DNA from: Streptomyces profundus
GTDB taxonomy: Bacteria > Actinomycetota > Actinomycetes > Streptomycetales > Streptomycetaceae
Length of the DNA: 64,000 nucleotides
Assembly (NCBI RefSeq): GCF_020740535.1
Contig: NZ_CP082362.1
Span: 6,135,501 to 6,199,500 of the forward strand
Direction: 5' to 3'
Below are positions 6,471 to 40,024 of this stretch, in pieces. The translations under genes and the position numbers were made by a program. Positions within the stretch are counted from its first letter, which is position 1. Each line of letters begins with the position of its first letter. Below the pieces are notes generated by a model. It made no database searches, had not been told where the DNA came from, and worked only from the letters and a program-made list of their open reading frames with translations.

Positions 6471-7538
6471 TTACGCGACTTCGCGCAACCAGCCCGCCCA
6501 GCGGTCGAGTTGGGCCAGCTCCAGGCGCAGCTCCGCCAGATACCCCAGGGCGTGGCGGTGCGCGTCCGCGCGCTCCGGCGGCGAGACCGGGCGGTGGCCC
6601 AGGGCCCGCCAGAGCATGAGGGCGGCGCCGCCCAGGCGTTGGTCGATCAGCCCGCCGAAGGCCGCCGGCACGGGCGCGACGGGCGCGCCGCCGGCCGCGC
6701 GGTACGCGTTCAGCACCTCGACGAAGCCGGCGCGGTCCCAGCCGTCCGCCGTGCGGCTGAACGCGAGGGCCGTGCGGGTCGCCTCCCAGGGCGCCAGATC
6801 GCGCCCCGCGCCCTCCCAGTCCAGCAGCACCGGGGTGTCGGCGGTGCGCAGGATGTTGTCCGGCTTGATATCCCGATGGGTGAACACCCAGAGCCCGTCC
6901 GGAAGTTGGTCGCCCGCCTCGGTGATGGTCCGATAGGCGAGCGCCACGTCGGGGAGATGGTCGGCGATGGCGCGGACGAACGCCGGGTCGGTATCCGGGC
7001 CCGCCTCGTCGAGCCACCGCCGCCACGCGTCGGCGGGGTGCGGCGGGTAGACGTTCCCCTCCTCCGCGTTCCCGGCCGGCGTCAGGGCGTGCAGCCGCGC
7101 CAGCGTGGCGCCGACCCAACGGCGCAGCTCAGGAGGGGCGTCGGTCTCGGCGACCTGGCTGCCGTGGCACCACTCCCAGGCCAGGAAGCTCACCGGCTCC
7201 GGCTCCTCGGCCACCGTCAGGTCGACCAGCGGGCCGGCGCCGGGGTGCGGCGGCTCGACCGGGCGGGGCATCGCGATGCCGGCGGCGAGCGCGGCCCGCT
7301 CGATCCTGACGGCCAGCAGGTGGTCCTGCCACCACCAGTCCTCCCGTGACCGGTTGAGACGCTTGACAGCCCATTCACCGTGCGCGGTGCGCAGTCGGAA
7401 CAGCGGGTGCGAACGGCCACCCCCCACCGGCTGCCAGTCGCCCGTCACCGGGCCCAGATCGAAGGCGGCGGCGACGGCGGCCGGCAGTTCGGCGGTCGTG
7501 GTGGCGACGGGGGGAGGTTGCGAAGGCACGGAGGGCAC
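6471..7538 (-). CDS. APH-fold small-molecule kinase (aminoglycoside phosphotransferase family)
   Basis: This 355-residue protein starts at GTG 7538, one base after the stop of the CoA-ester lyase gene; GTG 7529 is an alternative. The APH fold is clear: an N-lobe with WAVKRLNRS carrying the probable ATP-binding Lys, the catalytic loop VFTHRDIKPDNIL (H-x-D-x-x-x-x-N), and LLDWEGAG in the DFG position. HRDIKPDN is closer to the choline/homoserine-kinase-like side of the family than to clinical aminoglycoside kinases. As part of the catabolic operon it more likely phosphorylates a released sugar, alcohol or aglycone than an antibiotic. That role is inferred from context only. Confidence 0.78.
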   Translation of the reverse strand: MPSVPSQPPPVATTTAELPAAVAAAFDLGPVTGDWQPVGGGRSHPLFRLRTAHGEWAVKRLNRSREDWWWQDHLLAVRIERAALAAGIAMPRPVEPPHPGAGPLVDLTVAEEPEPVSFLAWEWCHGSQVAETDAPPELRRWVGATLARLHALTPAGNAEEGNVYPPHPADAWRRWLDEAGPDTDPAFVRAIADHLPDVALAYRTITEAGDQLPDGLWVFTHRDIKPDNILRTADTPVLLDWEGAGRDLAPWEATRTALAFSRTADGWDRAGFVEVLNAYRAAGGAPVAPVPAAFGGLIDQRLGGAALMLWRALGHRPVSPPERADAHRHALGYLAELRLELAQLDRWAGWLREVA

Positions 7539-7539
7539 G

Positions 7540-8397
7540 CTAGCAGCGGGCCGCCAGGGCCAGGGTGCGGCGGGCGCCGGCGACGACGGCGGGGTCCACG
7601 AACCTGCCGTCCGCCAGGGCCAGCGCGCCCGCCTCGGTCTCGGCCGCGCCCACCACCTCCCTGGCCGCCGCGATCTCGGCGGCGGTGGGCAGGAACGCCC
7701 GCTCGATGACGGGCAGTTGACGTGGATGCAGGGCGGTGCGGCCGAGGAAGCCCAGCGCGCGCCCGGCCGCGCAGGAGGCGGCGAGTCCGGTGAGATCGCG
7801 CACGTCCGGATAGACCGACTGGGCCGGCGGCGGCAGTCCCGCGGCCCGGGCCGCGACCACCGCCCGGCCCCGCGCCCAGGCCAGTCCCTCGTCGGCCGCG
7901 ACGCCGAGGTCCGCCCGCAGATCGGCCTCGCCGAGGGCGAGTCCGGCCACCGCCGGATGCCCCCCGGCCACGGCGAACGCCGCCTCCAGGCCCAACGCGC
8001 TCTCCAACAGGGGATACAGCGGCGGCACGGGGCGCCCCTCGGCCCACTCGGCGACCAGGGCGAGTTGGCGCGCCGACTCGACCTTGGGCAGCCGCAGACC
8101 GGCGAGCCCGGGCAGCCCGACCAGCCGCCGCACCTCGGCCTCCGCCCTGGGCCCGCCCGGCGCGTTCGTCCGCACCTGCACCGGGACGGGGAGCGGCGTG
8201 CCGAGCAACTCCTCGGTGGCGTCCAGCGCATAGCGTTTGCGCTCCGGGGCGACCGCGTCCTCCAGGTCCACGATCACCACATCGGCCCCGGAACGCAGTG
8301 CCTTGGCGACGACTTCCGGACGGTCACCAGGCACATAGAGCCAGGTGAGGCTCAGCTGCTCAACGGGAGGCGCCCCGCTCGGGGTGTGCGTGCTCAT
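7540..8397 (-). CDS. HpcH/HpaI-family CoA-ester lyase (CitE-like, malyl/citramalyl-CoA lyase type)
   Basis: This 285-residue protein spans the CitE/malyl-CoA lyase TIM barrel: WLYVPGDRPEVVAKAL at the N-terminus, the DVVIVDLEDAVAP strand with acidic metal ligands, KVESA, a PLLESALGL strand with the catalytic acidic residue, LGEADL, and SVYPDVRDL with GFLGRTALHPRQLPVI near the C-terminus. Family members cleave or condense beta-hydroxyacyl-CoA esters with Mg2+. Its ATG overlaps the CoA-transferase stop by ATGA, so the two enzymes are made together: the transferase activates a hydroxyacid to its CoA ester and the lyase splits it. The pair matches malate or citramalate degradation logic, but no dehydratase or hydratase is present. 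The true substrate is unknown. Confidence 0.82.
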   Translation of the reverse strand: MSTHTPSGAPPVEQLSLTWLYVPGDRPEVVAKALRSGADVVIVDLEDAVAPERKRYALDATEELLGTPLPVPVQVRTNAPGGPRAEAEVRRLVGLPGLAGLRLPKVESARQLALVAEWAEGRPVPPLYPLLESALGLEAAFAVAGGHPAVAGLALGEADLRADLGVAADEGLAWARGRAVVAARAAGLPPPAQSVYPDVRDLTGLAASCAAGRALGFLGRTALHPRQLPVIERAFLPTAAEIAAAREVVGAAETEAGALALADGRFVDPAVVAGARRTLALAARC

Positions 8398-9638
8398 AGC
8401 GTGCCCGCCGTTCGGAGGCGGGCGATCTCCTCGGCCGACAGGCCCAGTTCGCCCAGCACCGCTTCGGTGTCCGCGCCATGCGGCCGGCCGGCCCAGCGGA
8501 TGGCGCCCGGCGTCCCGGAGAGCCGGAAGAGCACGTTCTGCATCCGCAGCGGGCCCAACTCCTCGTCCTGGACCTCGGTGACGCTGTCCAGCGCCCGGTA
8601 CTGGGGGTCGTCCAGCACGTCCCGCACATCGTGGATCGGCGCGATCGCCGCCTCGGCCGCCTCGAAGGCGGCGAGCACGGCGGCCTTGTCATGGCGGGCG
8701 ATCCAGGCGCCGACCGCCTCGTCCAGCGTGTCGGCGTGCGCGGCGCGGCCGGCGCCCGAGGTGAACCACGGCTCGTCGACCAGCTCGGGGCGGCCCACGA
8801 GCCGCATCACCCGCTCGGCGATGGACTGGGCCGAGGTGGAGACGGCGACCCACTGCCCGTCCGAGGTGCGGTAGGTGTTGCGGGGCGCGTTGTTGGTGGA
8901 CCGGTTGCCGGTACGCGGCTGCACATAGCCCAGCTGGTCGTACCAGAGCGGCTGCGGGCCGAGCACCGTCAGCATCGGTTCGATGATCGCCAGATCCACC
9001 ACCTGGCCGACGCCGGTGGTGGCGCGGCCCGCGAGCGCGGTCATCACCGCGTAGGCGGTGGAGAGCGCGGCGATGGAGTCGGCCAGGCCGAACGGTGGGA
9101 GCGTGGGCGGCCCTTCCGGCTCGCCGGTGACGGCGGCGAAGCCGCTCATCGCCTCGGCCAGGGTGCCGAACCCGGGGCGCCTGGCATAGGGGCCGAACTG
9201 GCCGAAGCCCGTGACCCTGGCCAGCACCAACCTGGGGTTGGCCGCGTGGAGTTGATCCCAGCCCAGGCCCCACTTCTCCAGTGTGCCGGGGCGGAAGTTC
9301 TCGATCACCACGTCCGCGTCCGCCGCCAGCCGGAGCAGCAGCGCCCGGCCCTCCTCGGTGGACAGGTCGAGCGTCATGGTGCGCTTGTTGCGGCCCAGCA
9401 GCTTCCACCAGAGGCCGACGCCGTTCTTGCTGGGGCCGTGGCCCCGCGACGGGTCGGGGCGGCGTGGGTGCTCGACCTTGATCACCTCGGCGCCGAAGTC
9501 CCCCAGCAGGGTGGCGGCGAGGGGGCCGGCGAAGAGGGTGGCCAGATCCAGCACCCGAAGACCGGCCAGCGGCCCCCGGGGCCGGTCGGAGGTCTCGTCG
9601 GTGTTGGGTGAGTCGGCGTCGGGCGCGGTGTGGTTCAC
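8394..9638 (-). CDS. Class III CoA-transferase (CaiB/BaiF family)
   Basis: This 414-residue protein starts at GTG 9638, whose first four bases overlap the ribokinase stop (GTGA). A GGGAAG ribosome binding site precedes it. Class III CoA-transferase signatures are LAGLRVLDLATLFAGPLAATLLGDFGAEVIKVE at the N-terminus, GRNKRTMTLDLSTEEGRALL, the VVIENFRPG loop and VTGFGQFGP. The catalytic acid used as the covalent anhydride in this family corresponds to the Asp in FGLADSIA (about residue 165-175). The enzyme moves CoA from a donor such as succinyl-CoA to a carboxylic acid. Coupling to the CitE-like lyase suggests that acid is a hydroxydicarboxylate or related aglycone freed from the imported compound (inference). 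Confidence 0.87.
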   Translation of the reverse strand: MNHTAPDADSPNTDETSDRPRGPLAGLRVLDLATLFAGPLAATLLGDFGAEVIKVEHPRRPDPSRGHGPSKNGVGLWWKLLGRNKRTMTLDLSTEEGRALLLRLAADADVVIENFRPGTLEKWGLGWDQLHAANPRLVLARVTGFGQFGPYARRPGFGTLAEAMSGFAAVTGEPEGPPTLPPFGLADSIAALSTAYAVMTALAGRATTGVGQVVDLAIIEPMLTVLGPQPLWYDQLGYVQPRTGNRSTNNAPRNTYRTSDGQWVAVSTSAQSIAERVMRLVGRPELVDEPWFTSGAGRAAHADTLDEAVGAWIARHDKAAVLAAFEAAEAAIAPIHDVRDVLDDPQYRALDSVTEVQDEELGPLRMQNVLFRLSGTPGAIRWAGRPHGADTEAVLGELGLSAEEIARLRTAGTL

Positions 9639-10567
9639 GGTGCTTCCCTGGGGTGGGGGGCGGTGCGGTGCAGGGCGTCGATCTCGGCCCGGTGCGGCAT
9701 CGACGAGGCGGCGCCCCGGCGGCTGACGGAGAGGGCGGCGGCGCCGGCGGCCCACGCCATGGCGCGCGGCATCGGCCAGCCCTCGCCCACGGCGACGGCC
9801 AGCGCGCCGACAAAGGTGTCGCCCGCCGCCGTGCTGTCCACGGCCCGCACGGCGACGGCGGGTACGCTCACCGGCTCGGCGTTCCGCGCGGCATAGAGGC
9901 TGCCCGCCGCGCCCAGCGTGATCACCACCTCGGGAACGACGTCCAGAAACGCGCGCGCCGCGGCCAGCGGCTCATGGTGGCCGGTCAGCGCGGCGGCCTC
10001 GTGTTCGTTGGGCACCAACAGATCGGTGAGGGAGAGGAGTTCGTCCGGCAGCGGGCAGGCGGGCGCGGGCGTGAGCACGGTGCGCGCGCCGTGCGCGCGG
10101 GCGGCGCGCGCCCCGGCCAGCACCGCCTCCAGGGGGAGTTCGAGCTGCATCAGCAGGGTGTCGGCATCGGCGATCCGCTGCTCGTCGCCCTCGCCGAGGC
10201 CGGTCACGGTGCCATTGGCGCCCGGCACCACCACGATGGAGTTGCCGCCCTCGTCGTCCACCACGATATGGGCGATGCCACTGGGCCCCGGCTCGGTGCG
10301 CAACCCCACGGTGTCCACGCGCGCCTCGTTGAGCGTGGCCCGCAGCCGGGGCCCGAACTCGTCGTCGCCCACGGCGCCGATCATGGTGACGGAGCCGCCG
10401 GCGCGGGCGGCGGCGATCGCCTGGTTGGCGCCCTTCCCCCCGGGCACGGTGCGGAACTCGCGGCCCGACACCGTCTCCCCCCGGCGTGGCGCGGCGGCCA
10501 CATAGGCCACCAGATCCATATTGGTCGAGCCCAGCACGGCGACGGCGGTGGCACGGTCTTCGGTCAC
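9635..10567 (-). CDS. rbsK: PfkB-family sugar kinase, ribokinase
   Basis: This 310-residue protein has ribokinase landmarks throughout: GSTNMDLV at the start, the PfkB signature 1 region TVPGGKGANQAIAAARAG, signature 2 VDSTAAGDTFVGAL with the catalytic Asp, and VVITLGAAGSLY. The G-G-K-G-A-N segment and overall length match D-ribokinase better than fructokinase or adenosine kinase. It would make ribose 5-phosphate in the cytoplasm from free ribose. It sits directly downstream of four ADP-ribosylglycohydrolase-fold genes (16-base gap) and overlaps the CoA-transferase start by four bases. The simplest reading is that the hydrolases release ribose or a ribose-like sugar that this enzyme phosphorylates. 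Confidence 0.87.
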   Translation of the reverse strand: MTEDRATAVAVLGSTNMDLVAYVAAAPRRGETVSGREFRTVPGGKGANQAIAAARAGGSVTMIGAVGDDEFGPRLRATLNEARVDTVGLRTEPGPSGIAHIVVDDEGGNSIVVVPGANGTVTGLGEGDEQRIADADTLLMQLELPLEAVLAGARAARAHGARTVLTPAPACPLPDELLSLTDLLVPNEHEAAALTGHHEPLAAARAFLDVVPEVVITLGAAGSLYAARNAEPVSVPAVAVRAVDSTAAGDTFVGALAVAVGEGWPMPRAMAWAAGAAALSVSRRGAASSMPHRAEIDALHRTAPHPREAP

Positions 10568-10583
10568 GGGGTTACCTCCGGGT

Positions 10584-11960
10584 TCACGCGGAAACCTCCC
10601 GGGTCAGGGCGGCCAGGGCGTCGAAGCCGATGCCGTCGAAACCCGTGATGGAGCTGGCCAGTCGGTTGCGCAGCGGCGCCGTCCAGCGGCTGGGCAGCGC
10701 CTCGGGGGCGCCGGCCAGCGCGCCAGCGACGGAGCCGGCGGTCGCGCCGTTGGAGTCGGTGTCCAGGCCCCCGGCCACGGCCCGGCAGATGGACGCGGTG
10801 AAATCCCCGTCCGCATGGGTGAGCGCGGCGGCCAACAGCGCGGCGTTGGGCAGCACATGCACCCAGTGGTGACCTTCGAACCGCGCGTGCAGCAGATCGA
10901 CCACGGTGTCGAAGTCGCCGTGCGCGCGGGCCGTCTCGATACCCAGCGTCACGGCGGCGGCGTAACGGGAGCCCGGCGGCACGACGTTGAGCCCGGCCGC
11001 CAGACAGCGGTGCACGTCGCTCGCGCCGCCGACCGCCTCCGAGACCACGGCCGCGACAAACATCGCCCCGTAGACGCCGTTCGCGGTGTGCGTCAACACG
11101 GCGTCCCGGTGGGCGAGTTCGGCGGCGGTCGCCGGATCGCCCGGATGGGTCCAGCCGAACACATCGGCGCGGATCTGCGCGCCGATCCACTCCCGGAACG
11201 GGTTGCGGTACGTCGCCGTCGCCGGCGGCTCCACGCCCGCCAACAGGTTGCGGTAGGCGACACGTTCGGCGGTGAACGTACGTCCGGCCGGCACCTCGTC
11301 CAACCACAGCCCGGCGACATCGGCGGTGTCGAACGCGTCCCCGTGCCGGCGCAGCAACAGCAGCCCCAGCAGCGGGTAGTTGAGGTCGTCGTCCTCGGGG
11401 GCGCCGTCGATGGTCTCGGCCAGCGAGGTGGGCGCCGAGCGCCGGTTCCACGGGTAGGCGGCGGCCAGCTCGGACGGCACGCCCCTCGCGGTGAACCAGT
11501 CGTCCAGCGGCCAGTTCCCCGTGGCCCTGGCCAGCGCCCTGATGCCGGTCAGCGGCAGCTTCTCCACGGGCTTGCCCAGCACACAGCCGGCCGCCCGGCC
11601 CAGCCAGGCCGCCGTCAGCCTCCGCACCCCCGCCGGCGCCGAGAGCACCGGCCGCGCCGGCCAGTCGGGGCAGGCCGCCCGGATGGCGGCCAGCTCCGTC
11701 GGCTCCCGCCGCGCAGAGGGCAGCTCAAGCGCCGCCAACGCGTCGAGCGACTCCTCGGCCAGCCGGCGCAGCGCGGGCGACGCCGGCGTCGCCGAGGCGC
11801 CGGCCCGTTCCGGGGCCGGCGACCCGCCGGCCGCCAGCCACCGGTCGGCGATCGCGCCCGCGTCCCGGCCGTCCTGCGCGGCCTGGGCCAGCTCATGACC
11901 CACCAGATCCTCCGGCTGCACCCAGGTCAGCCGCAGCGGACGCCGCCCCTGGCCCGTCAC
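10584..11960 (-). CDS. ADP-ribosylglycohydrolase-family protein 1 (large variant, last of four)
   Basis: This 458-residue protein starts at GTG 11960, overlapping the preceding hydrolase stop by GTGA. It has an N-terminal extension of about 115 residues before the all-helical ARH/DraG fold. The fold's first motif is a variant, WLGRAAGCVLGKPVE. Both halves of the binuclear metal site are recognisable: PEDDDLNYP (about residues 188-196) and GGLDTDSNGATAGSVAGAL near the C-terminus, where D-x-D-S supplies the second pair of ligands. It is therefore likely catalytically competent. Family enzymes hydrolyse O- or N-glycosidic bonds to ribose of ADP-ribose, and sugar-operon members are largely uncharacterised. 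It is quite different in sequence from the other three, so the four are not recent duplicates. Confidence 0.87.
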   Translation of the reverse strand: MTGQGRRPLRLTWVQPEDLVGHELAQAAQDGRDAGAIADRWLAAGGSPAPERAGASATPASPALRRLAEESLDALAALELPSARREPTELAAIRAACPDWPARPVLSAPAGVRRLTAAWLGRAAGCVLGKPVEKLPLTGIRALARATGNWPLDDWFTARGVPSELAAAYPWNRRSAPTSLAETIDGAPEDDDLNYPLLGLLLLRRHGDAFDTADVAGLWLDEVPAGRTFTAERVAYRNLLAGVEPPATATYRNPFREWIGAQIRADVFGWTHPGDPATAAELAHRDAVLTHTANGVYGAMFVAAVVSEAVGGASDVHRCLAAGLNVVPPGSRYAAAVTLGIETARAHGDFDTVVDLLHARFEGHHWVHVLPNAALLAAALTHADGDFTASICRAVAGGLDTDSNGATAGSVAGALAGAPEALPSRWTAPLRNRLASSITGFDGIGFDALAALTREVSA

Positions 11961-13141
11961 GGCGCCTCCGTCAGGGCGGCGAACCCGGCCTCGTGCGCGC
12001 GGCGGCGCGCCACGTCCCGGGCGAACACCTCGCGGGTCACCTCGGTGAGCGCCACGGCCGGCGCCCGCAGATCGAGCCGGCTGGCCCGGCCGACCTCGGC
12101 GCTCCACTCCTCGGGCACCGCCCGCTCGCCGCGCAGCGCGCCGACGATGGCGCCGCTCATCGTGGCGATCGAGTCGCAGTCCCGGCCGTAGTTGACCGAA
12201 CCCAGCACCGTCTCCCGGAAGTCGCCGCCGCCGACCAGCAACATGCCCAGGGCGACGGGCAGTTCCTCGATGGCATGCAGCCGGGACGGCCGCCGGGCGC
12301 CCAGCGACGGCTTGCGGTAGTCCGGGCCGACGGTGTCGAACGGGGCGACGGCCGCCCGCAGCGGCGCCAGCGCCGCCTCGAAGTCCCGGTAGTCGGCGGC
12401 CACTTCGCAGACCGCCTCGATCGCGGCCCGGGTGCCGTCCTTGGCCAGCGCGAGGGCCGCCTCCACCACCGACTCGGGCGTCGCGTCCGGCCGCAGCGCG
12501 GCGGCGACGGAGGCGGCGAACACCCCGGCCGCCTCCCGCCCATAGCTCGACTGGTGGGCGCCGGCCACATCGAGCGCCTCCGCGTAGGCGGCCTCCGGAT
12601 GCGCCGCGTTGACCACCCCGACCGGCGCCATGTACATCGCCGCGCCGCAGTTGACGATGTTCCCGACGCCCGCCTCGCGCGGATCGACATGGCCGTAGTG
12701 CAGCCGGGCCACCATCCACTTCTCGGCCAGGAAGATCCGCTGCAACGGCAGGGCCTCCGCCTCCAGTTCGGGAATCCAGCGCGGCGTGGTGATCAGATCG
12801 GGCACCAGATGGTCGGCCACCGCGTAGGCGTCGAGATGGTCCCGCACCCGCTCGTAGACCCGGACCAGCGCATGGGTCATCAGGGTGTCGTCGGTGACAT
12901 GCCCATCGCCCTTGTGGTACGGCGCGATCGGCCGGGCGGTGCGCCAGTCGTCCTTGTGGAACGGCTCGACGATGCCCCGGACGCGGCCACCGTGCCGTTC
13001 CACGATCGCCTCGGGCGTCCAGCCCTCCACGGGGCCGCCGAGCGCGTCGCCCACGGCCGCGCCCACCAGGACGCCGGCCGTGCGCTCCGCCAACGACGGC
13101 CGGGAGGTGACGAGTTGGGTCTGGCTCATGCTCTGGCTCAC
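11957..13141 (-). CDS. ADP-ribosylglycohydrolase-family protein 2
   Basis: The first GTG (13141) overlaps the upstream stop as GTGA; ATG 13129 is the alternative, giving 390 rather than 394 residues. The ARH fold is canonical: GVLVGAAVGDALGGPVEGW, the first metal motif GHVTDDTLMTHAL (T-D-D-T), and a second motif YGRDCDSIATMSGAIVGAL (D-x-D-S) towards the C-terminus. All expected Asp ligands are present, so an active glycohydrolase is predicted. There is no signal peptide, so it acts in the cytoplasm on imported material. The neighbours on both sides are paralogues translated by stop-start overlap, which suggests a fixed stoichiometry or a stepwise pathway. Confidence 0.88.
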   Translation of the reverse strand: MSQSMSQTQLVTSRPSLAERTAGVLVGAAVGDALGGPVEGWTPEAIVERHGGRVRGIVEPFHKDDWRTARPIAPYHKGDGHVTDDTLMTHALVRVYERVRDHLDAYAVADHLVPDLITTPRWIPELEAEALPLQRIFLAEKWMVARLHYGHVDPREAGVGNIVNCGAAMYMAPVGVVNAAHPEAAYAEALDVAGAHQSSYGREAAGVFAASVAAALRPDATPESVVEAALALAKDGTRAAIEAVCEVAADYRDFEAALAPLRAAVAPFDTVGPDYRKPSLGARRPSRLHAIEELPVALGMLLVGGGDFRETVLGSVNYGRDCDSIATMSGAIVGALRGERAVPEEWSAEVGRASRLDLRAPAVALTEVTREVFARDVARRRAHEAGFAALTEAP

Positions 13142-14319
13142 GTGCGGACTCCTTCGGGTGAGGTGGAGTGGGGGGAAGCCTGCGGAAGGGACGGTGGGGC
13201 GTGGATCAGCTCAAGCTGGTCGGCGATCTCCACCAGATCGACTCCGGCGAGTTGGGGCAGGGCGCAGCCGGCCAGCGTGCGGCAGGCGTCGCGCCAGCTG
13301 GTGGGCAGCGCGTCCGCGCCGCCCACCACGCCGGTGAGCGCCCCGGCGAGCGCCGGCGCCGAATCGGCCACCCGGGACAGACACGCCGCGCTCGGCACCG
13401 CCTCGGTGACGGCGCCGGCGGCGGCCGTGGCCACCGCCAACGCCACCGGCACCGTCTCGGCCGCCGCGATGCCATAGCTGTAGACGTGGTCGACGATCTC
13501 GTGCTCCAGCACCGGGACCAGCGCGAACGCGTTCCCCGGCAGGCCGGGCCTGGCCGCTGCCGCCGCCTGTCCCAACTCCACGGCGCGCAGCGCGTTGCGC
13601 CTGATCTCGGTGTCCTCCGGCAGCTGACGCAGGGCCGCCGCCACACAGAGGTCCATCGAATCGCCGCCCAGCGCGGTGGCAACGGCCGCCGCTATGGCGC
13701 GGGCGCCGTGCACCCCGTCGTCGTCCTGTGTGTAGCGGGCGTCGAACTCGGCCAGGTCGGCGGCGGCCTCCGGGGCTCCCGGGTGCACCACGGCCAACAC
13801 GGCGGCCCGCACGCAGGCGGCGTCGTCGAAGTAGTGCGGATTGTCGTGTCCGGTCGCCGGGGGCCGCAGCCCGGCCGCCAGGTTCCCGAGACCGGCGCGC
13901 ACCGAGATCCGGGCGCGCAGCGGGATATGCGCCGACTCGATCTCGGGCGCCCGGCTGGCCGCCGCCGCCACCTCGTCCGCCAGCGTGTTCCACGCCAACG
14001 CCAGGGCGGAGCGCACCCGTTGGTCCGCCGGCAGATCACTGCCGCCCGACCCCGTCGCGGACAGCACCGACCTGGCGGTGAACGCCGCCCACTCGGCGTC
14101 GTCCGAGGGGCCGAGGCGCAGCGGGTCGGGCGGCTGGTTGAGGGCGATCGGCACGGGCAGCGTGGTCGTCGCGTTCTGCTCGGCGAAGGTGTCCAACTCC
14201 CTGGTCAGCCGGCGGGTCCAGTCCGGCAGCCGCGTCGCCCGATGCCGCCCCGAGGGCCACCCGGCGGCATCGCCGGCGGCGATGCCCAGCAGCAACCCCT
14301 CCACTCGCGCACCGCTCAT
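13138..14319 (-). CDS. ADP-ribosylglycohydrolase-family protein 3, degenerate metal site
   Basis: This 393-residue protein starts at ATG 14319 (ATGA overlap with the previous gene). It opens with the ARH motif VEGLLLGIAAGDAAGWPSG and keeps the overall fold length, but the catalytic motifs differ from its neighbours. The T-D-D-T motif reads SDDAEWAAF, losing the Thr ligand. The C-terminal D-x-D-[ST] motif reads SRVADSAPALAGAL, keeping only one Asp. It may bind fewer metals, have altered chemistry, or serve as a non-catalytic partner or ligand-binding subunit. The reading frame is intact with normal codon use, so it is under selection and is not a decaying pseudogene. Confidence 0.8.
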   Translation of the reverse strand: MSGARVEGLLLGIAAGDAAGWPSGRHRATRLPDWTRRLTRELDTFAEQNATTTLPVPIALNQPPDPLRLGPSDDAEWAAFTARSVLSATGSGGSDLPADQRVRSALALAWNTLADEVAAAASRAPEIESAHIPLRARISVRAGLGNLAAGLRPPATGHDNPHYFDDAACVRAAVLAVVHPGAPEAAADLAEFDARYTQDDDGVHGARAIAAAVATALGGDSMDLCVAAALRQLPEDTEIRRNALRAVELGQAAAAARPGLPGNAFALVPVLEHEIVDHVYSYGIAAAETVPVALAVATAAAGAVTEAVPSAACLSRVADSAPALAGALTGVVGGADALPTSWRDACRTLAGCALPQLAGVDLVEIADQLELIHAPPSLPQASPHSTSPEGVRT

Positions 14320-15965
14320 CGCACGGCTCCCGTCCGGCCGCTTCCCACGGGCGCCTCGCTCCCCGCACGCCACCGCCCTGGGGCCGCCGCCCCACCGCCC
14401 GAGGGGCCGGCGCCCGCAGCCGGGGCGTTGTCGCCCCAGCCGGCCCCGGGAGGGGCGCCGCCCGGCAGGTACCGACCTCGACTGCCTTCCCGGCCGTCGA
14501 CCGGCCCGGCGCCGCGCGTCGGCCTTGCCGGCCGGGCGCCGCCGACCGAGGCCGCGCCGCCCGCGCCGCCCTTGTCGTCGGCCGGGGCTGTGTCGGCCGT
14601 GCCGGTGCGCTCGTCGGTGGTGTCGGTGCTTTTCGCCGGGGGGTGGGTGGCTACTGGGCCCGGGTGTGGCTCGGTGCCGCCGGCCGAGGCCGCGCCCGTG
14701 CTCTCCCGGCCGGTGGTCGGTCTTGCGCCGCTCGCCGGGGCGTGCCCCGCCCCGGTGGCCGGCGGCGTCCGCGCCTCCGCCGGCGCTGGTTCGGTCGTGG
14801 TTCCGGGCCCTCGCCCCGCCGCTGGCGTCATCCTGCCGGGCATCGCCCCCGCCTCGGCGGCGGATCCGGCTCCCGCCGGCGGCGCAGCCGCACCCGCCGG
14901 GGGCGTCCTCGGGGTCAGCAGGTCGGCTACTTCGAGGACGTGGCGGCCGGCCATGGAGGGGAGGCAGCTGCCCCGGACGGGGCCGATGGCGGCCGACCAG
15001 TCGGTGGGGATCGCGGCCACGCCGCGCAACGCGCCGGCCAGCGCGCCGGCGACCGCCGCCGTGGTGTCCGCGTCGCGGCCCATGTTGACGGCGGTGCCGA
15101 CCGCCGCGCGGAACTCGCCGCGCGCGGCGGCGAACGCGCCGAACGCCAGGCCGACGGCCTCGGGCGCGAGGTCCGTCCAGGGATAGCCGCCGATCACGGT
15201 GGCCGAGCGGACCGCGCGTTCCACCGACAGCTGGGTGGCCGCCGGATCGTGCCGGGCGCGCCGCGCCGCCGACACCGCGCGGTGCAGCGATCTGGCCGTC
15301 CAGGAGTCCTCGGGGACCACCGAGAGGGCGGCCTGGACCACCACGTCCGGCTCGTGGCCGACCATCGCCGCGGCCACCCCGGCGGCCACGGCGCGCCCGC
15401 CGTAGATGCCCTCGCCGTCGTGCGAGACGGTGCCGTCGATGGCGACCAGGCGGGCCGCCTCGGCCGGTCGGCCGGCCGCGAAGACGCCGAACGGCGCGGC
15501 GCGCATGGCCAGTCCGTCGCTCCAGGCGTGCCGGTGCTGCGCCGAGATCGGCGCTGCCAGGCCACGGCGGAGGTTCTCCAGGGTGCCGCGCTCGCTGAAT
15601 CCCGCGCCCCGGAACGGGCCCTCGTCCCGGTCGGCGATCCACTCGTGCCAGGCGGACTCGACCTGGGCGACGGTCAGCGCCGAGCCGTGCCGGGCGAGCA
15701 GCAGCCCGGAGAAGATGGCGTACTCGGTGTCGTCGGTGCCGGCCGGGTCGTCCCGGACGAAGCCGTCGATGCGGCCCCAACGCTCCCTGATCTGGGAGGG
15801 GGTGAGGTTCTCGGCCGGCGCGCCCAGCGCGTCGCCGACGGCCAGGCCGAGCATCGCGCCCCTGGCGCGGTCGCGCGGCACGATCGGTTGCCCTGGCGTC
15901 GCCGGCGACGACCGACGCGGTGCGGGAACGGGATCGATGCTGACACTCATGGTGTTCGTGCTCAT
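14316..15965 (-). CDS. ADP-ribosylglycohydrolase-family protein 4 with long low-complexity C-terminal tail
   Basis: Of 549 residues, about 28-345 form a canonical ARH domain: RARGAMLGLAVGDALGAPAE, GTDDTEYAIFSGLLL (T-D-D-T metal motif), an I-x-G-x-V-x-H-D-G-E-G-I-Y-G-G loop, and MGRDADTTAAVAGALAGAL (D-x-D-T). It is the best match of the four to classical DraG/ARH enzymes. After VLEVADLL the protein continues for about 195 residues of Pro/Ala/Gly/Thr-rich low-complexity sequence with no recognisable domain, an unusual addition to this otherwise globular family. There is no clear ribosome binding site. The ATG lies 45 bases downstream of the solute-binding-protein stop, the widest gap in this part of the operon. 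Confidence 0.87.
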   Translation of the reverse strand: MSTNTMSVSIDPVPAPRRSSPATPGQPIVPRDRARGAMLGLAVGDALGAPAENLTPSQIRERWGRIDGFVRDDPAGTDDTEYAIFSGLLLARHGSALTVAQVESAWHEWIADRDEGPFRGAGFSERGTLENLRRGLAAPISAQHRHAWSDGLAMRAAPFGVFAAGRPAEAARLVAIDGTVSHDGEGIYGGRAVAAGVAAAMVGHEPDVVVQAALSVVPEDSWTARSLHRAVSAARRARHDPAATQLSVERAVRSATVIGGYPWTDLAPEAVGLAFGAFAAARGEFRAAVGTAVNMGRDADTTAAVAGALAGALRGVAAIPTDWSAAIGPVRGSCLPSMAGRHVLEVADLLTPRTPPAGAAAPPAGAGSAAEAGAMPGRMTPAAGRGPGTTTEPAPAEARTPPATGAGHAPASGARPTTGRESTGAASAGGTEPHPGPVATHPPAKSTDTTDERTGTADTAPADDKGGAGGAASVGGARPARPTRGAGPVDGREGSRGRYLPGGAPPGAGWGDNAPAAGAGPSGGGAAAPGRWRAGSEAPVGSGRTGAVR

Positions 15966-16010
15966 TTCTGGGTTGTGCGGGGGCCGCGCGACGACGGCGC
16001 GGGCGAGGCG

Positions 16011-17330
16011 CTAACGCTGGTAGCGGTCGAGGATCCGGTTGCCGTCGTCGGTGAGCTTGTCCCGAAGCGTGTCCAGACCGATGGCCCCGCTGTAGTACTC
16101 CTGTAGCGCGGGGGTGGCGATCTTGTCCTTCCATTCCGGATAGCCGCGCACCCCGAGCACCGGGGAGGGGCGCAGCTCGCTCGCTATTCGGGTCCCGGTG
16201 CGCCAGCCGTACTCCTCGGTGTCCAACGCCGGGTCGGCGAGGGCCTGTTGGCTGGTCGGGAGCATCCAGTCGCCCTGCGCGAGGGCCACCTGGTGTTCGG
16301 GCTGGGCGAGGAAGGCGATGAAGTCGGCGGCGGCCCGCTGGTGGTCGCTGTCCTCGGCGACGGAGAGGGTCTGCGGCGCGACGCCCTGGGCCAGGCCGTG
16401 TCGGGGCCCGCCGCTCGGCATCGGGAGCACCGTCCAGTCGAAGCCGTCGGGCGCCTGTTGGGCGACCTGCTGCCGGAAGGAGAAGTTGAGCGGCAGCATC
16501 GCGTAGCGGCCGGCGAAGAACCCCGGCAGGGTGTCCGAGCCGGTCATGCCCAGGCTGCCGCGCGCGGCGGTGCCGTCCTCGTGCACCTGACGGTGGATCA
16601 GCTCGGCGACGGCCGAGTCGGCCGGGTCGTAGCGGACCTCGTTCTTGCCGTCCCGCCGGGTGAAGACCTCGCCGCCGGTGGACAGCGACAGGTTGACGGT
16701 CTGGGTGACCGGTTCCCTCATCGACCAGGCCACGCCGTAGGTGTCGGTGTCGCCGTCCCCGTCGGCGTCCTCGGTGAGCGCGGCGCCCGCGGCCTCGAAC
16801 TCGGGCCAGCTCCACGGCTCTTCGGGCGTCGGCAGGCGGACCCCGGCGCGTTCCAGCAGGGTGGTGTTGGCGACCAGCACCCGGGGCTCCTGGAGGAACG
16901 GCACCCCGTAGATCCCGCCCTCGTAGGTGGTGGTGGACCAGGCCGCCTCTGGGACGTCGGCCAGCAGCGCGTCGGGCAGTAGCGGCGAAAGGTCGGCCAG
17001 GAAGCCGCCGTTGGCGAAGTCCGTCAGGTCGGACGCGTCGTTGTGGATGACGTCCGGCGCCTCGCCGCCCTCGAACGAGGTGAGCAGATGGTCGTGGATG
17101 TTGTCCCAGGAGCCCTGGACGTAGCGGACCTGGACATCGGGATTGGCCGCGTTCCACTGTTCGACGAGGGCCTCGTTGGCCGCCACCGACTCCGCCTGCC
17201 AGGCCAGGCTCAGGAACTCCAACGTGACCCGGCCGTCGTCGTCCGGTGAGCCGCCGCCGCAGCCGGCGGCCCCCAGCAGGGCCAACGTCCATGCGCCGGC
17301 GATGAGTCGGGCACGCGTCAGGCGCCTCAT
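16011..17330 (-). CDS. Sugar ABC transporter solute-binding lipoprotein (CUT1 type)
   Basis: This 439-residue extracellular solute-binding protein of family 1 starts at ATG 17330, overlapping the permease stop by ATGA, with GAAGGG as ribosome binding site. The N-terminus has a basic start, a hydrophobic core and the lipobox LLGAAGC, so Cys23 or so is the lipid-modified residue and the protein is anchored outside the membrane. The mature part has the two-lobe pattern typical of CUT1 binding proteins: VTLEFLSLAW, AANPDVQVRYVQGSWDN, GEAPDVIHND, GVPFLQEPRVLVANTTLLERAG. It delivers a saccharide or glycoside to the two permeases encoded just upstream. Confidence 0.9.
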   Translation of the reverse strand: MRRLTRARLIAGAWTLALLGAAGCGGGSPDDDGRVTLEFLSLAWQAESVAANEALVEQWNAANPDVQVRYVQGSWDNIHDHLLTSFEGGEAPDVIHNDASDLTDFANGGFLADLSPLLPDALLADVPEAAWSTTTYEGGIYGVPFLQEPRVLVANTTLLERAGVRLPTPEEPWSWPEFEAAGAALTEDADGDGDTDTYGVAWSMREPVTQTVNLSLSTGGEVFTRRDGKNEVRYDPADSAVAELIHRQVHEDGTAARGSLGMTGSDTLPGFFAGRYAMLPLNFSFRQQVAQQAPDGFDWTVLPMPSGGPRHGLAQGVAPQTLSVAEDSDHQRAAADFIAFLAQPEHQVALAQGDWMLPTSQQALADPALDTEEYGWRTGTRIASELRPSPVLGVRGYPEWKDKIATPALQEYYSGAIGLDTLRDKLTDDGNRILDRYQR

Positions 17331-18226
17331 CCCTTCACCGCCCCGGCGAGCATCCCGCTGACCAGCCGCCGTTGGAGCAGCGCGAAGAACAGCAGGCTGG
17401 GCAGCGTGGCCAGCAGCGCGGCGGCGGCCAGCGGGCCCAGGTCGGCGACGCCCTCGGCGCCGATGAAGTGGGTCAGGATCACGGACATCGTCTGCTTCTC
17501 CGGAGACTTGAGCAGGACCAGGGCGAAGAAGAACTCGTTCCAGGCGGTGACGAAGGAGAACATCAGCGTGGCGACCAGGCCAGGCGTCAGCAGCGGCAGC
17601 ACCACGCTGGTCAACGTCCGCAGCCGGCTGGCGCCGTCCACCGCGGCGGCCTCCTCCAGGGATATCGGCACCGCCCGCACATAGCCCCGCAGCATCCACA
17701 GCGCGAACGGCAGGTTCCACACCACGTAGACGATGACAAGACCCGGGAGCTGGTTGATCAGATGGAGGTTCCGCAGCACCAGGAAGAGCGGGATGATCAC
17801 CAGCACGAACGGGAACATCTGGCTGACCAGGATCCACACCGTGCCGGCCCGGCTGATCCGGGAGCGGTGGCGGACCATCACATAGGCGGCCGGCACCGCG
17901 ATGGCCACCGCGATCACCGCCGCGCTGGTCGCCACCACCAGACTGTTGAGGGCGGACCTGAGCAGCGGCTGGGCGTCGAAGGCGGCCCGGAAGTTCGCAA
18001 GGCTCGGGTCCCTCGGGATCCAGCTCGGGTCGATGGAGCCCAGCTCCTGCGGCGACTTGAGCGAGGTGGAGAGCAGCCACAGCAGCGGGAAGCCGAGGAA
18101 GACCAGATAGCACAGCAGCGCCAGATACTGCCCGGCGCGGCCGGCGCCCCTGGCGAGCCTGCGGCGCGCCGGCGGCCTCGTGGCGGGGGGCCCGGTGACG
18201 GGCGGCGCCGGGTCGGTGCGGCTCAT
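17327..18226 (-). CDS. Sugar ABC transporter permease (MalG-like, CUT1)
   Basis: This 299-residue inner-membrane permease starts at ATG 18226 (ATGA overlap). A Pro/Arg-rich cytoplasmic N-terminus leads to six predicted transmembrane segments, the first at YLALLCYLVFLGFPLLWLLS. The EAA loop that docks on the ATPase is present as SLEEAAAVDGASRLRTLTSVVLPLLTPGL (E-A-A-x-x-D-G-A form). The end SFVTAWNEFFFAL, then LLQRRLVSGMLAGAVKG, is characteristic of MalG/CUT1 partners. No ATP-binding subunit is encoded in the operon. In Streptomyces, CUT1 importers commonly share the MsiK ATPase, which is the likely partner here. Confidence 0.91.
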   Translation of the reverse strand: MSRTDPAPPVTGPPATRPPARRRLARGAGRAGQYLALLCYLVFLGFPLLWLLSTSLKSPQELGSIDPSWIPRDPSLANFRAAFDAQPLLRSALNSLVVATSAAVIAVAIAVPAAYVMVRHRSRISRAGTVWILVSQMFPFVLVIIPLFLVLRNLHLINQLPGLVIVYVVWNLPFALWMLRGYVRAVPISLEEAAAVDGASRLRTLTSVVLPLLTPGLVATLMFSFVTAWNEFFFALVLLKSPEKQTMSVILTHFIGAEGVADLGPLAAAALLATLPSLLFFALLQRRLVSGMLAGAVKG

Positions 18227-19182
18227 CGCGCGTCCTCCTTGAGCTTGCGGCGCAGGAACAGCACCAGCAGCACCGCGATCAGGGCGATCATCGCCAGCCC
18301 CATCGCCGCCGCGTAGCCGTACTGGCCGTACTTGAACGCCTCCTCGTAGGCGAAGAGCGACGGCAGCCGCGTCCGGCCGCCGGGACCGCCCTGGGTCAGC
18401 ACGTAGATCAGGCCGAACGAGTTGAAGTTCCAGATGAAGTTGAGCGCGGTGATCGCCAGCACCACGGGACGGATCGCCGGCCAGGTGACGGTGGTGAACC
18501 GGCGCCAGGCCCCGGCGCCGTCCAGCGCCGCCGCCTCCCGCAGTTCGAGGGGCACGTTCTGCAGGCCGGCCAGCAGCACCACCGTGGTCTGCGGCATGCC
18601 CGCCCAGACGCCGACCACGATCACGGCTGGCAGCGCCAGCGTCATCGAGGAGAGCCAGTCCACCTGGCCGTCGATCAGGCCGAGTTGGGCGAGCGTCTTG
18701 TTCAGGATGCCGGCGTCCTGGTGGTAGACCAGCCGCCACATGACGCCGACCACCACCTCGGGCATCGCCCAGGGGACCAGCGCCAACGTCCTGGCCAGCC
18801 AGCGGAACCTGAGGTTCTGGTCCAGCAGCAGCGCGAGACCCAGGGCGAGGAGGAACTGGAGGGTGGTGACGCAGAGCGCCCACACCAGGCCGATCCGGAA
18901 GGACTCCCAGAACAGCGAGTCGTGCCTGAGGTCCGTGAAGTTGAGCAGGCCCACGAACTGGGTGGGCGAGGTGCGGCCCGCCTGGGCGTCGGTGAAGGCG
19001 AGGGAGACCGCATAGACCAGCGGGCCAACGCTCAGCAGCAGGATGGGTATCAGGGCGGGAAGCAGCAGAAACCAGGCACCCCTGTCCAGGCCCAGCGCAC
19101 GTTTGCGCTGCCTGGGCGTTCTGGGCGGCGGGGTGCCGCGGCTGCCCGGGACGGCCTTGGCCCGGGGCTTGAGCAGACTCAT
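18223..19182 (-). CDS. Sugar ABC transporter permease (MalF-like, CUT1)
   Basis: This 319-residue permease has a basic cytoplasmic N-terminus and six predicted membrane segments beginning at WFLLLPALIPILLLSVGPLVY. The EAA loop is LELREAAALDGAGAWRRF and the MalF-type NFIWNFNSFGLIYVLTQGGP segment is present, both hallmarks of carbohydrate uptake permeases. It starts at ATG 19182, seven bases after the LacI gene stop, and its own stop overlaps the next permease. It forms the heterodimeric membrane channel with the MalG-like partner. Confidence 0.92.
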   Translation of the reverse strand: MSLLKPRAKAVPGSRGTPPPRTPRQRKRALGLDRGAWFLLLPALIPILLLSVGPLVYAVSLAFTDAQAGRTSPTQFVGLLNFTDLRHDSLFWESFRIGLVWALCVTTLQFLLALGLALLLDQNLRFRWLARTLALVPWAMPEVVVGVMWRLVYHQDAGILNKTLAQLGLIDGQVDWLSSMTLALPAVIVVGVWAGMPQTTVVLLAGLQNVPLELREAAALDGAGAWRRFTTVTWPAIRPVVLAITALNFIWNFNSFGLIYVLTQGGPGGRTRLPSLFAYEEAFKYGQYGYAAAMGLAMIALIAVLLVLFLRRKLKEDAR

Positions 19183-19189
19183 CGAATCC

Positions 19190-20272
19190 TCATGGTGTCG
19201 GGGTCGGCCGCCGCACCGTGGAGGCGCGGACGACGAGGCGGGGCAGGGCGGTCGTGGTGCGGGGCGCTTCGGGCGGGGCGGCCTCGGTGGCGGTCCCGGC
19301 CTCGCCGTCGGCGGGTGGCGCCGATCGGTCGGGGGAGCGGTCGGCGAGCCGTCGCAGTAGCAACTCGGCGGCGCGCCGGCCGCGTTCGGAGGAGCCGAGG
19401 TCCACGCTGGTCAGCGGTGGCCAGCCGGCACGCGCCAACTGGCTGTCGTCCATCCCGGCCACCGCCAGGTCCTCGGGTATGCGCAGCCCACGGGCGAGCA
19501 GCGCGTGCGCCGCGCCCAGCGCGAGCTGGTCGTTGGCGCAGAAGATCGCGTCGGGCCGGGCGGGCAGCAGCCGTCCGGCGGCCTCGGCGCCGGCGTCGAT
19601 GCCGAAGTCGGTGTGGACGACCAGCGCCTCCTCGTAGGGCAGGCCGCACTCGGCGAGGGCGCTCCGGAACCCGAGGTCGCGGTTGTGTCCTGGCACGGTG
19701 TCGGCCGGGCCGTTCACAAAGGCGATCCGGCGGCGCCCGGTGGCGTGCAGATGGCGGACCGCGAGGGCGGCGCCGGCCACCGAATCGGCCCGCACGCTGT
19801 CCACCGGCACGCCGGGCGGCAGCGAGCCGATCACCACCACGGGGCCCGCCGCCTCGCGCAGCGCGGCGATATGCGCGTCGGTGATCCGGATCGGGCAGAG
19901 GATCAGCCCGTCGCTGGTGCGGTCGGCGAGGCTGCGCAGCACGGCCAGCTCGTCCTCCGCCACCGCGTCCGTCGAGTGCAGCAGCAGCCGGTACCCGGCG
20001 GCCTTGGTCACCTCCTGGATGGCCCGGACCATCGCCACATAGACGGGGTTGCCGATGTCGGGCATGGCAAAGGTGAGTTGGCGGGTCCTGCCGTCCTTGA
20101 GGGAACGCGCGACCGCGTTGGGCACATAGCCGAGATCGGCGGCGGCGCGCCGGACCCGCTCGGTGGTGTCCCGGCGCGCGCCCTGCCCGTTGAGCACCCG
20201 GGACACGGAGGCGATGGAGACGCCGGCGCGTTCGGCGATCGACACGATGGTCGGCTTTCCGCCGTTGGACAT
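19190..20272 (-). CDS. LacI-family transcriptional repressor of the ARH/sugar operon
   Basis: This 360-residue regulator starts at ATG 20272, with GGAGAAGGAGACAAGG upstream giving a good ribosome binding site. The N-terminal helix-turn-helix is textbook LacI: TIVSIAERAGVSIASVSRVLNG, then the hinge region with NAVARSLKDGRT. Residues about 65-330 form the periplasmic-binding-protein-like effector domain. A Pro/Ala-rich linker of about 40 residues before the final strand is unusual. Its gene is the first of the operon, seven bases before the MalF-like permease, and two LacI-type operator half-palindromes lie about 75-110 bases upstream. It therefore probably represses itself together with importer and enzymes until the imported compound or its sugar binds. 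Confidence 0.91.
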   Translation of the reverse strand: MSNGGKPTIVSIAERAGVSIASVSRVLNGQGARRDTTERVRRAAADLGYVPNAVARSLKDGRTRQLTFAMPDIGNPVYVAMVRAIQEVTKAAGYRLLLHSTDAVAEDELAVLRSLADRTSDGLILCPIRITDAHIAALREAAGPVVVIGSLPPGVPVDSVRADSVAGAALAVRHLHATGRRRIAFVNGPADTVPGHNRDLGFRSALAECGLPYEEALVVHTDFGIDAGAEAAGRLLPARPDAIFCANDQLALGAAHALLARGLRIPEDLAVAGMDDSQLARAGWPPLTSVDLGSSERGRRAAELLLRRLADRSPDRSAPPADGEAGTATEAAPPEAPRTTTALPRLVVRASTVRRPTPTP

Positions 20273-37143: not shown

Positions 37144-38205
37144 CTAGCCCACCGCGATGAGGAGTTTGCCCCGGTTGGCCGCGCGGTTGGTGTAGAGGTT
37201 CTGGTAGGCGACGGGGAAGGCGTCGAAGCCCTGGTGCACCGTCTCGTCGAAGACGATCTCGCCGCGCCGCACCAGGCCGCCGACGTCCCGCAGCAGAATG
37301 GCCAGGTTCTCTTCGGTGAACCACTCCTCGGCGAAGATGCCTCGGATCGTGGTGCGCGGGAACATGATGTAGGGCAGCAGCCGGGGCCCGATCCAGTCGC
37401 CGTTGACGGTGGTGGACCACTGCCAGCAGACGGCCACCCGGCTGTGCGGGCGCAGCATGCGGAACGCCGCGTCGGTGACGCTGCCGCCGAGGTTGTCGAA
37501 GTAGCGGTCGATGCCGTCGGTCGCCGCGAGCAGCGCCTTGTGGGTCTCGTCCACGTCGTCGCCCTGGCGGTAGCGCACCACCTGGTCGAAGCCGAAGCGC
37601 GTCAGGTAGTCGACCTTCTCCTCGGACGAGGTGGTGCCGATCACCTTGGCCGCCCCGGCGCGCTTGGCCAGCTGCGCGGCCAGCGTGCCGATCGCCCCGC
37701 TGGCGCCGCTGATCAGCACCGTGTCGCCCGGCGTCACGTCGAGGAACTTGGTCATGGTGCCCCAGGCGGTGATGCCGGGGGTGCCCATGATGCCCAACGC
37801 CGTGGAGATCGGCAGCCGTTGGTTGTCGTAGTCGGCGGGGTCGAGGCGACGGAACGGGGGCAGTCGCAGCGGGAAGCCGCCGTTCTGCCAGACCCAGGCC
37901 CGGCCGTCGCTCACCAGATGGGTGCGCCAGCCGCCGAAGCCCTGCACCAGGTCCCCGACGCCGAAGTCGGCGCGCGGCCCGGCGTCGACGACCTCCATGA
38001 TGGAGTCGCCACCGACGTGTTGGCCCAGCGGCGTCTCCTGGGAGAGGCCCACCAGATAGGGGTCGACGGAGACATAGCGGGTGCGGAGCAGCATCTCGTC
38101 GTCCCGCAGCGTGACGTCGAGTTCCTCGGTGACCTTCTCGTAGATCCGCTCGGCCTCGGGGATACCGGCCACATGTTCGCGGACGACCCACTTCTCGATC
38201 TTCAA
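37144..38205 (-). CDS. ikaC: NADP-dependent MDR-type reductase of the tetramate macrolactam cluster (IkaC-like)
   Basis: This 353-residue zinc-independent medium-chain reductase resembles prostaglandin-reductase/CurA-like enzymes. The catalytic N-domain has YVSVDPYLVGLSQ. The Rossmann domain has the NADP motif VLISGASGAIGTLAAQLAKRAGAAKVIGTTSSEEK and the typical DRYFDNLGGSVTDAAF. The start TTG 38205 is set by a GAGGAG ribosome binding site six bases upstream and by TTGA overlap with the stop of the preceding oxidoreductase. In ikarugamycin biosynthesis the corresponding alcohol-dehydrogenase-like enzyme, IkaC, closes the inner five-membered carbocycle by a reductive step. The three-gene order here is the same as ikaA-B-C, so I assign that role by synteny. 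Confidence 0.85.
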   Translation of the reverse strand: MKIEKWVVREHVAGIPEAERIYEKVTEELDVTLRDDEMLLRTRYVSVDPYLVGLSQETPLGQHVGGDSIMEVVDAGPRADFGVGDLVQGFGGWRTHLVSDGRAWVWQNGGFPLRLPPFRRLDPADYDNQRLPISTALGIMGTPGITAWGTMTKFLDVTPGDTVLISGASGAIGTLAAQLAKRAGAAKVIGTTSSEEKVDYLTRFGFDQVVRYRQGDDVDETHKALLAATDGIDRYFDNLGGSVTDAAFRMLRPHSRVAVCWQWSTTVNGDWIGPRLLPYIMFPRTTIRGIFAEEWFTEENLAILLRDVGGLVRRGEIVFDETVHQGFDAFPVAYQNLYTNRAANRGKLLIAVG

Positions 38206-39980: not shown

Positions 39981-40024
39981 GAGTCGGTCACACTCCTCCT
40001 TGTCGCATCCCCCACGCACCGAAC

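Follow-up and report, generated by a model that had tools for sequence, protein, structure and literature searches.

Four ARH-fold genes in a conserved Streptomyces block with LacI, sugar importer, ribokinase-like and CoA-type genes: a candidate operon for riboside catabolism

This study analyzed a stretch of 64,000 nucleotides from Streptomyces profundus (contig NZ_CP082362.1, positions 6,135,501 to 6,199,500; hereafter the window, in whose numbering all positions are given). The window carries twelve leftward genes at 6471-20272 on the minus strand, with a LacI-family gene first and an APH-fold kinase gene last according to Pfam, and four consecutive genes among them encode proteins of the ADP-ribosylglycohydrolase (ARH) fold, ARH1 to ARH4. 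The four ARH proteins are tied to a sugar importer, a ribokinase, and coenzyme A (CoA)-type genes by conserved gene order, co-occurrence, and gene fusion. We consider it somewhat probable that the run is an operon, repressed by LacI, for the breakdown of a small ribose-containing molecule taken up from outside, with the ARH-fold proteins acting as ribosidases. Judged from the sequence, riboside catabolism by such ribosidases would be the most economical reading. We computed gene content, conservation, co-occurrence, operators, metal-site conservation, the ribokinase likeness of the kinase, and ARH4-kinase fusions.

According to this reading, LacI would bind two operators 19 bp apart before its own gene and repress the run, and the binding protein and two permeases would import a compound with power from a MalK/MsiK-type ATPase encoded elsewhere. 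The imported compound would presumably be the one cut by the ARH-fold proteins, which may hydrolyze a ribofuranosidic bond through their two-metal site; the alpha anomer is suggested by analogy with known ARH enzymes. ARH3 and ARH4 would form the core pair, and ARH1 and the probable pseudoenzyme ARH2 an accessory pair. The PfkB ribokinase would phosphorylate the freed ribose, and the CoA-transferase-like and CitE-like proteins would process the remainder, most simply by making the CoA ester of a hydroxy acid and then splitting it. The scheme is weakest at the CoA step and in what the aglycone is; the proposal of an acid aglycone depends on a CoA-transferase whose active site is unusual.

Conservation of the gene block

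We chose the gene starts from the open frames and assigned the families by Pfam. All gene families named in a preliminary description of this DNA were present on the minus strand, and the mostly 4-base overlaps that it had reported were found at 7 of the 11 junctions, the remaining four being gaps of 1, 7, 16, and 45 bases. The genome comprises a single contig of 7.65 Mb with six PF03747 genes, four of which lie in the block. The G+C content of the window is 73%, and no tRNA or Rfam match was found within it.

To define related loci, we used the best 80 of 474 confirmed ARH4 relatives in named genomes (79 from Streptomyces and one from [Kitasatospora] papulosa); the nearest ARH4 relatives with a named source were likewise from Streptomyces. 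Gene presence was determined by tblastn at E 1e-10, and some loci end at contig ends. The results revealed the same gene order, with ARH4 and ARH3 in all 80 loci, the CoA-transferase and CitE in 79 each, ARH2 in 78, ARH1 in 70, PfkB in 46, and LacI, both permeases, and the binding protein in 13; ARH3, ARH4, the CoA-transferase, and CitE occurred together in 79. The APH-fold kinase (6471..7538; PF01636), which the preliminary description had counted as part of a twelve-gene set, had no match in any of the 80 loci and was ruled out as a member, so that it is a neighbor of a conserved block of eleven genes from LacI to CitE.

The usual Streptomyces site has the order gltB, VIT1, block, lgt, trpA. 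Where LacI is absent (67 loci), 65 show lgt and trpA and 56 show VIT1 and gltB; where it is present (13 loci), each of the four genes appears in 5. None of the four was found in the window, and its block therefore lies at another site. A locus from genome G415 (L155) keeps the transporter between VIT1 and lgt with no ARH genes there, and ARH3 and the CoA-transferase are absent from that genome.

Across the class, a sample of 394 genomes contained ARH4 relatives (E <=1e-15) in 73, ARH4-like paralogues included. We chose 14 orthologous loci (L130-L143) from six other families. ARH3 and ARH4 were present in 14/14, LacI, the permeases, and the binding protein in 13, the CoA-transferase and CitE in 11, ARH1 and ARH2 in 10, and PfkB in 9. 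The locus without LacI and transporter (L140) starts at a contig end beside ARH3, and a minimal form without ARH1 and ARH2 was found in L133, L142, and L143. At E <=1e-60, ARH3 was found in 10 of 396 genomes of a phylum sample, all of the window's genus; the strict orthologue is therefore patchy. The block is more than a chance assembly, and its gene order recurs in other genera.

Nine of these 14 loci also encode a protein with an alpha-amylase/alpha-galactosidase-like barrel (protein X), which is not in the window; significant matches in a PDB sequence search with protein X were limited to its FGE-like C-terminal part. The gene at L142:6278-8278 and its relatives (P0125-P0244) belong to an actinobacterial family that takes its name, SUMF1/EgtB/PvdO, from the C-terminal part; the N-terminal half contains an alpha-amylase-like barrel without a Pfam match.

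We further investigated co-occurrence without linkage in 24 chosen genomes, of which 12 contain ARH3 or ARH4 (eight from family f17 and four from the window's genus) and 12, of that genus, lack ARH3. A CoA-transferase of at least 65% identity was present in 12/12 ARH genomes versus 0/12 without ARH3, where the best match had 41% identity (Fisher 7e-7, uncorrected for relatedness), and a CitE of at least 50% identity was present in 12/12 versus 1/12, the sole exception being a 69% fragment in a draft of 1,140 contigs. Four genomes (G121, G315, G362, and G405) contain the CoA-transferase/CitE pair though apart from the ARH genes. In the f17 blocks without a local CoA-transferase, no common enzyme was found among the adjoining genes. 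Co-occurrence of the binding protein with ARH3 was weak over 61 genomes (31 with both, 9 and 11 with a single one, and 10 with neither; p 0.079), and the genomes examined that lack the transporter at the block have close transporter relatives elsewhere. Conservation of the set across genomes was the first refutation test that the preliminary description had set for itself, and the outcome was in its favor: the order is kept in the 80 nearest loci and in other families, and the CoA-transferase and CitE co-occur with the ARHs.

ARH-fold proteins, kinase, and CoA-type enzymes

All four ARH-fold proteins scored above the PF03747 cut-off of 26.2 bits. ARH1 (14316..15965; 200.6 bits, 5.6e-59), aligned to DraG, has intact TDD and DADT motifs and a low-complexity C-terminal tail of approximately 200 residues by eye. 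ARH3 (11957..13141; 180.2 bits, 9.2e-53) has intact TDDT and DCDS motifs, and ARH4 (10584..11960; 158.5 bits) has an N-terminal extension of approximately 100 residues and an intact DTDS motif; these two belong to the minimal core. ARH2 (13138..14319; 116.6 bits, 2.2e-33), which like ARH4 was scored in a longer open frame, has VADS at the second metal motif.

The alignments of relatives revealed the same distribution. After one row of more than 1,200 residues was left out, ARH1 rows kept TDD/SDD in 83/84 (one gap) and D-x-D-T in 84/84. The first metal motif of ARH3 was kept in 98/99 rows (one gap) and the second in 99/99. In ARH4, whose alignment of 115 rows includes paralogues, the second motif was D-x-D-S/C in every string shown (109 rows), and the Thr of the first was replaced in most rows. 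In ARH2, from whose alignment three over-long rows were left out, the first Asp of the second metal motif was missing in the 89 non-gap rows of 90, with strings such as RVADSAPA in our reading of the register. This pattern suggests that ARH2 is a pseudoenzyme, probably not an enzyme. Hence, all four proteins belong to the family, as previously described, but only three keep the catalytic metal site.

To determine whether the importer link extends to the ARH family, we compared hand-picked loci with spot regions. A permease of this type lay within approximately 10 kb in 9 of 17 ARH4-like paralogue loci versus 0/20 spot regions (Fisher 2e-4). Of 38 general ARH loci picked by hand from the class, with short contigs mostly omitted and L117 and L118 also among the 17, four had such a permease nearby versus 0/20 (p 0.29), and the proposition that ARH genes generally are sugar-operon genes was thus unsupported. 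Because of this difference (9/17 versus 4/38 versus 0/20), the importer link seems to be peculiar to ARH4 kin rather than a property of the whole ARH family. In L120, L124, L145, and L195, another ARH4-like gene of Streptomyces (46-48% identity) belongs to a conserved cluster that also includes a distant relative of CitE (26-28% identity).

The PfkB kinase (9635..10567; PF00294) scored 299.1 bits against the ribokinase model TIGR02152, whose cut-off is 299.65, and nucleoside-kinase models scored far below ribokinase. The ribose-site residues of E. coli RbsK are N14, D16, G42, K43, N46, E143, and D255; in the alignment to 1gqt, the window protein is identical at all of these positions, which are at least 95% conserved in 57 PfkB rows of >42% identity. 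By score and sugar-site residues, PfkB is ribokinase-like, as the preliminary description had proposed.

Three database proteins (P0109, P0328, and P0352) are ARH4-PfkB fusions, both halves being of full length by eye. P0109 is 76% identical to the ARH4 of the window, and P0328 and P0352 are close to each other and 51% identical to the ARH4 of L143. The fusions may be artefacts of gene prediction or sequencing; if real, they would link what ARH4 produces to the kinase and would be the strongest individual argument for ribose.

The last two genes of the block encode a class III (CaiB/BaiF) CoA-transferase-like protein (8394..9638; PF02515) and a CitE/RipC-like CoA-ester lyase (7540..8397; PF03328). 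The latter matched the broad HpcH_HpaI profile, and its PDB matches are acyl-CoA lyases; it reached no equivalog cut-off, scoring 149.7 versus 375 against the RipC/citramalyl-CoA lyase model NF038242.

Predicted operators and importer

The LacI-family repressor (19190..20272, 360 residues, ATG start at 20272) matched Pfam LacI and Peripla_BP_3/1. Its nearest NCBIfam models were RbsR, CcpA, GntR, and CytR, none over cut-off. Two LacI-type palindromes precede the gene on the minus strand, at 20381-20366 (operator 1) and 20362-20347 (operator 2), 19 bp apart; each has one mismatch to the pattern TGKAAACGWTTMCA, and relatives have them at the same place and spacing. We searched for this pattern with at most one mismatch. 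It was found in 13/13 Streptomyces loci with LacI, at 45-124 bp before the first LacI residue in the alignment (two sites in 12 and one in L054), and in none of the 67 Streptomyces loci without LacI, 56 of which are uncut. In the other families, a predicted operator precedes LacI in 11 of 13 LacI-bearing loci (none in L136 and L138); of further f17 loci, L223 has two-mismatch sites only and L222 ends at LacI. No site was found in 792,430 bases of Markov-shuffled sequence, and none at the unlinked CoA-transferase/CitE loci. The helix-turn-helix and ligand domains and the conserved upstream palindrome mark the protein as a LacI-type repressor with predicted operators. These predicted operators support the earlier description of a LacI-controlled operon; most of the 80 loci lack LacI.

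The importer consists of two ATP-binding cassette (ABC) permeases, perm1 (18223..19182) and perm2 (17327..18226), both BPD_transp_1 and probably MalF-like and MalG-like, respectively, and an extracellular solute-binding protein (16011..17330; SBP_bac_1) whose PDB relatives are mostly named sugar-binding proteins. The block has no ATPase gene, as noted earlier; a gene for a MalK-type ATPase lies at another place in the genome (G000:C1:2719101), and the lack is therefore no objection to import. With a binding protein, two permeases, and an unlinked MalK-type ATPase, the system is probably a CUT1 importer, a label that goes beyond the permeases' BPD_transp_1 match. Close transporter relatives elsewhere in Streptomyces (L150-L154 and L156-L158) have an APH-fold kinase beside 6/8 and a UGT-like glycosyltransferase beside 4/8. 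These orphan neighborhoods, with Pfam run on L152 and L156, were considered as a substrate clue and named no substrate.

Elsewhere in the window, a gene region at 38202-49513 (-) encodes a 3162-residue hybrid polyketide synthase/nonribosomal peptide synthetase (KS, AT, DH, KR, ACP, C, A, PCP, and TE) followed by an FAD-dependent oxidoreductase, a cluster that we take to be of the polycyclic tetramate macrolactam type. Adjoining it, 49795-51906 (+) encodes alpha-1,3-glucanase-type catalytic domains. A further gene, at 24516-26552 (-), encodes a 678-residue EF-G-like GTPase that may be a ribosomal-protection protein.

Alternative explanations and known systems

Several results weigh against riboside catabolism. 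Of the 80 nearest loci, 67 have neither LacI nor the transporter; contig ends cut 11 of these, and 56 are uncut, so that many Streptomyces lack both at this site. PfkB was not found in 34 of the 80. The CoA-transferase-like protein has Gly at the column of the usual Asp in 90/90 rows of >42% identity. The Asp at this column of class III CoA-transferases is catalytic; among five aligned PDB chains, four have Asp and one, the benzylsuccinate CoA-transferase subunit 9fn0_B, has Gly, and a literature search on class III CoA-transferases without the Asp returned no paper. Because Gly occurs in all rows, CoA transfer by this protein is open to question. Separately, the combination of an ARH, a putative sugar kinase, and a transporter has a simpler, uncharacterised precedent in E. 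coli yegTUV (PMC10819704). Overall, the earlier interpretation gains from the conservation, the LacI operators, the ribokinase-like PfkB and its fusions to ARH4, and three intact metal sites, but loses from the APH kinase outside the set, the loci without LacI and transporter, and the yegTUV precedent.

The same evidence bears on three other explanations. The ARHs may be ADP-ribosyl hydrolases acting on protein, nucleic acid, or NAD-derived metabolites, with the kinase and CoA genes salvaging ribose and other products. They share the fold and have an intact metal site, the 56 uncut Streptomyces loci without a local importer mean that the substrate could be endogenous, and the DraG-like SCO2028-SCO2031 of S. 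coelicolor are counted among ADP-ribosyl hydrolases (PMC5087735, PMC9411070). We nevertheless regard this explanation as unlikely: the ARH proteins of the block scored at best 72.2 against the DraG equivalog TIGR02662 (cut-off 337.05) and 50.1 against Tri1 NF041672 (cut-off 490), the importer, LacI, and protein X fit it poorly, and no activity of SCO2028 or SCO2030 was detected on U-alpha-ADP-ribose, although that is a single substrate (PMC13036486). An equally unlikely explanation is a nucleoside-like compound, such as an alpha-riboside of a base, with the kinase or ARHs acting on nucleosides or their phosphates and with no acid aglycone. In yegTUV, a predicted nucleoside:H+ symporter is encoded together with a putative sugar kinase and an ARH (PMC10819704), and mammalian ARH1 and ARH3 are reported to cleave alpha-NAD+ (PMC9738213); on the other hand, the binding protein resembles sugar-binding proteins, the nucleoside-kinase models fall far below ribokinase, and the CoA-transferase and CitE track the ARHs.

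Marginally less likely still, the ARHs could cut a non-ribose glycoside (of another cis-diol sugar), with protein X, in the loci that have it, as the principal glycosidase and with the same sugar as the substrate of the kinase. The barrel of protein X in 9/14 non-Streptomyces loci and the 34 loci without PfkB are consistent with this; the retained ribokinase sugar site in PfkB orthologues, the ARH4-PfkB fusions, and the ARH substrates described in the literature excerpts, which are ADP-ribosyl compounds cut at ribose, argue against it.

The observation of the gene set is confirmed and stronger than the preliminary description could know, although one of its twelve genes is not a member and one ARH is likely inactive. 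More broadly, and with somewhat less than even probability, the ARH fold may include a lineage of catabolic ribosidases. These would be a two-metal type of glycosidase, present as several copies together with a conserved pseudoenzyme, and would serve to consume an abundant environmental riboside whose role as bacterial food has yet to be recognized. If so, Streptomyces ARHs now listed as ADP-ribosylation erasers would be nutritional enzymes, a widespread annotation would be misleading, there would be a simple explanation for the known excess of hydrolases relative to transferases in Streptomyces, and a new catabolic pathway and substrate would await. Through its repressor and its binding protein, the operon offers a direct route to the substrate.

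A literature search for an operon like the block returned none among the matches listed; the closest was E. coli yegTUV, whose product YegV we take to be of the PfkB type. The yegTUV operon (repressor GgaR/YegW) encodes a transporter, the ARH-family YegU, and the putative sugar kinase YegV, with functions stated to be unknown there, and thus resembles the block in uniting these under a single local repressor; it differs in having three genes, one ARH, a major facilitator superfamily nucleoside symporter, and a GntR regulator said to sense ADP-glucose (PMC10819704). The S. coelicolor proteins SCO2028-SCO2031 are listed among uncharacterised DraG/ARH homologues, whose presumed role is the reversal of ADP-ribosylation (PMC5087735, naming three of the four; PMC9411070); the text consulted treats them only as ADP-ribosyl hydrolase candidates, without ribokinase, CoA-transferase, or CitE neighbors. 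They are probably the orthologous run, because they are numbered just below the trp genes (SCO2038 is trpX) and the usual Streptomyces site of the block has gltB on one side and trpA on the other. Two papers on staphylococcal cassettes also contain both ARH and ribokinase as terms.

Compared with the ARH/DraG family (PF03747; human ARH3 and R. rubrum DraG), the ARHs of the block fall below the curated DraG and Tri1 cut-offs and sit in a LacI/ABC/ribokinase operon, one of the four lacking a metal ligand. The two-metal site that grips ribose in human ARH3 is kept here in ARH1, ARH3, and ARH4, and ARH2 has lost one ligand. Itaconate/citramalate-type CoA pathways use a RipC/Ccl lyase and class III CoA-transferases. 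The block shares the pairing of a CitE-like lyase with the class III CoA-transferase fold but has no hydratase gene, a RipC score below cut-off, and Gly in place of the catalytic Asp. CUT1 sugar operons without their own ATPase are powered by MsiK or MsmX; such operons share with the block a LacI protein, a binding protein, two permeases, and a MalK-type ATPase elsewhere, whereas a glycoside hydrolase would be expected where the block has its ARH-fold proteins.

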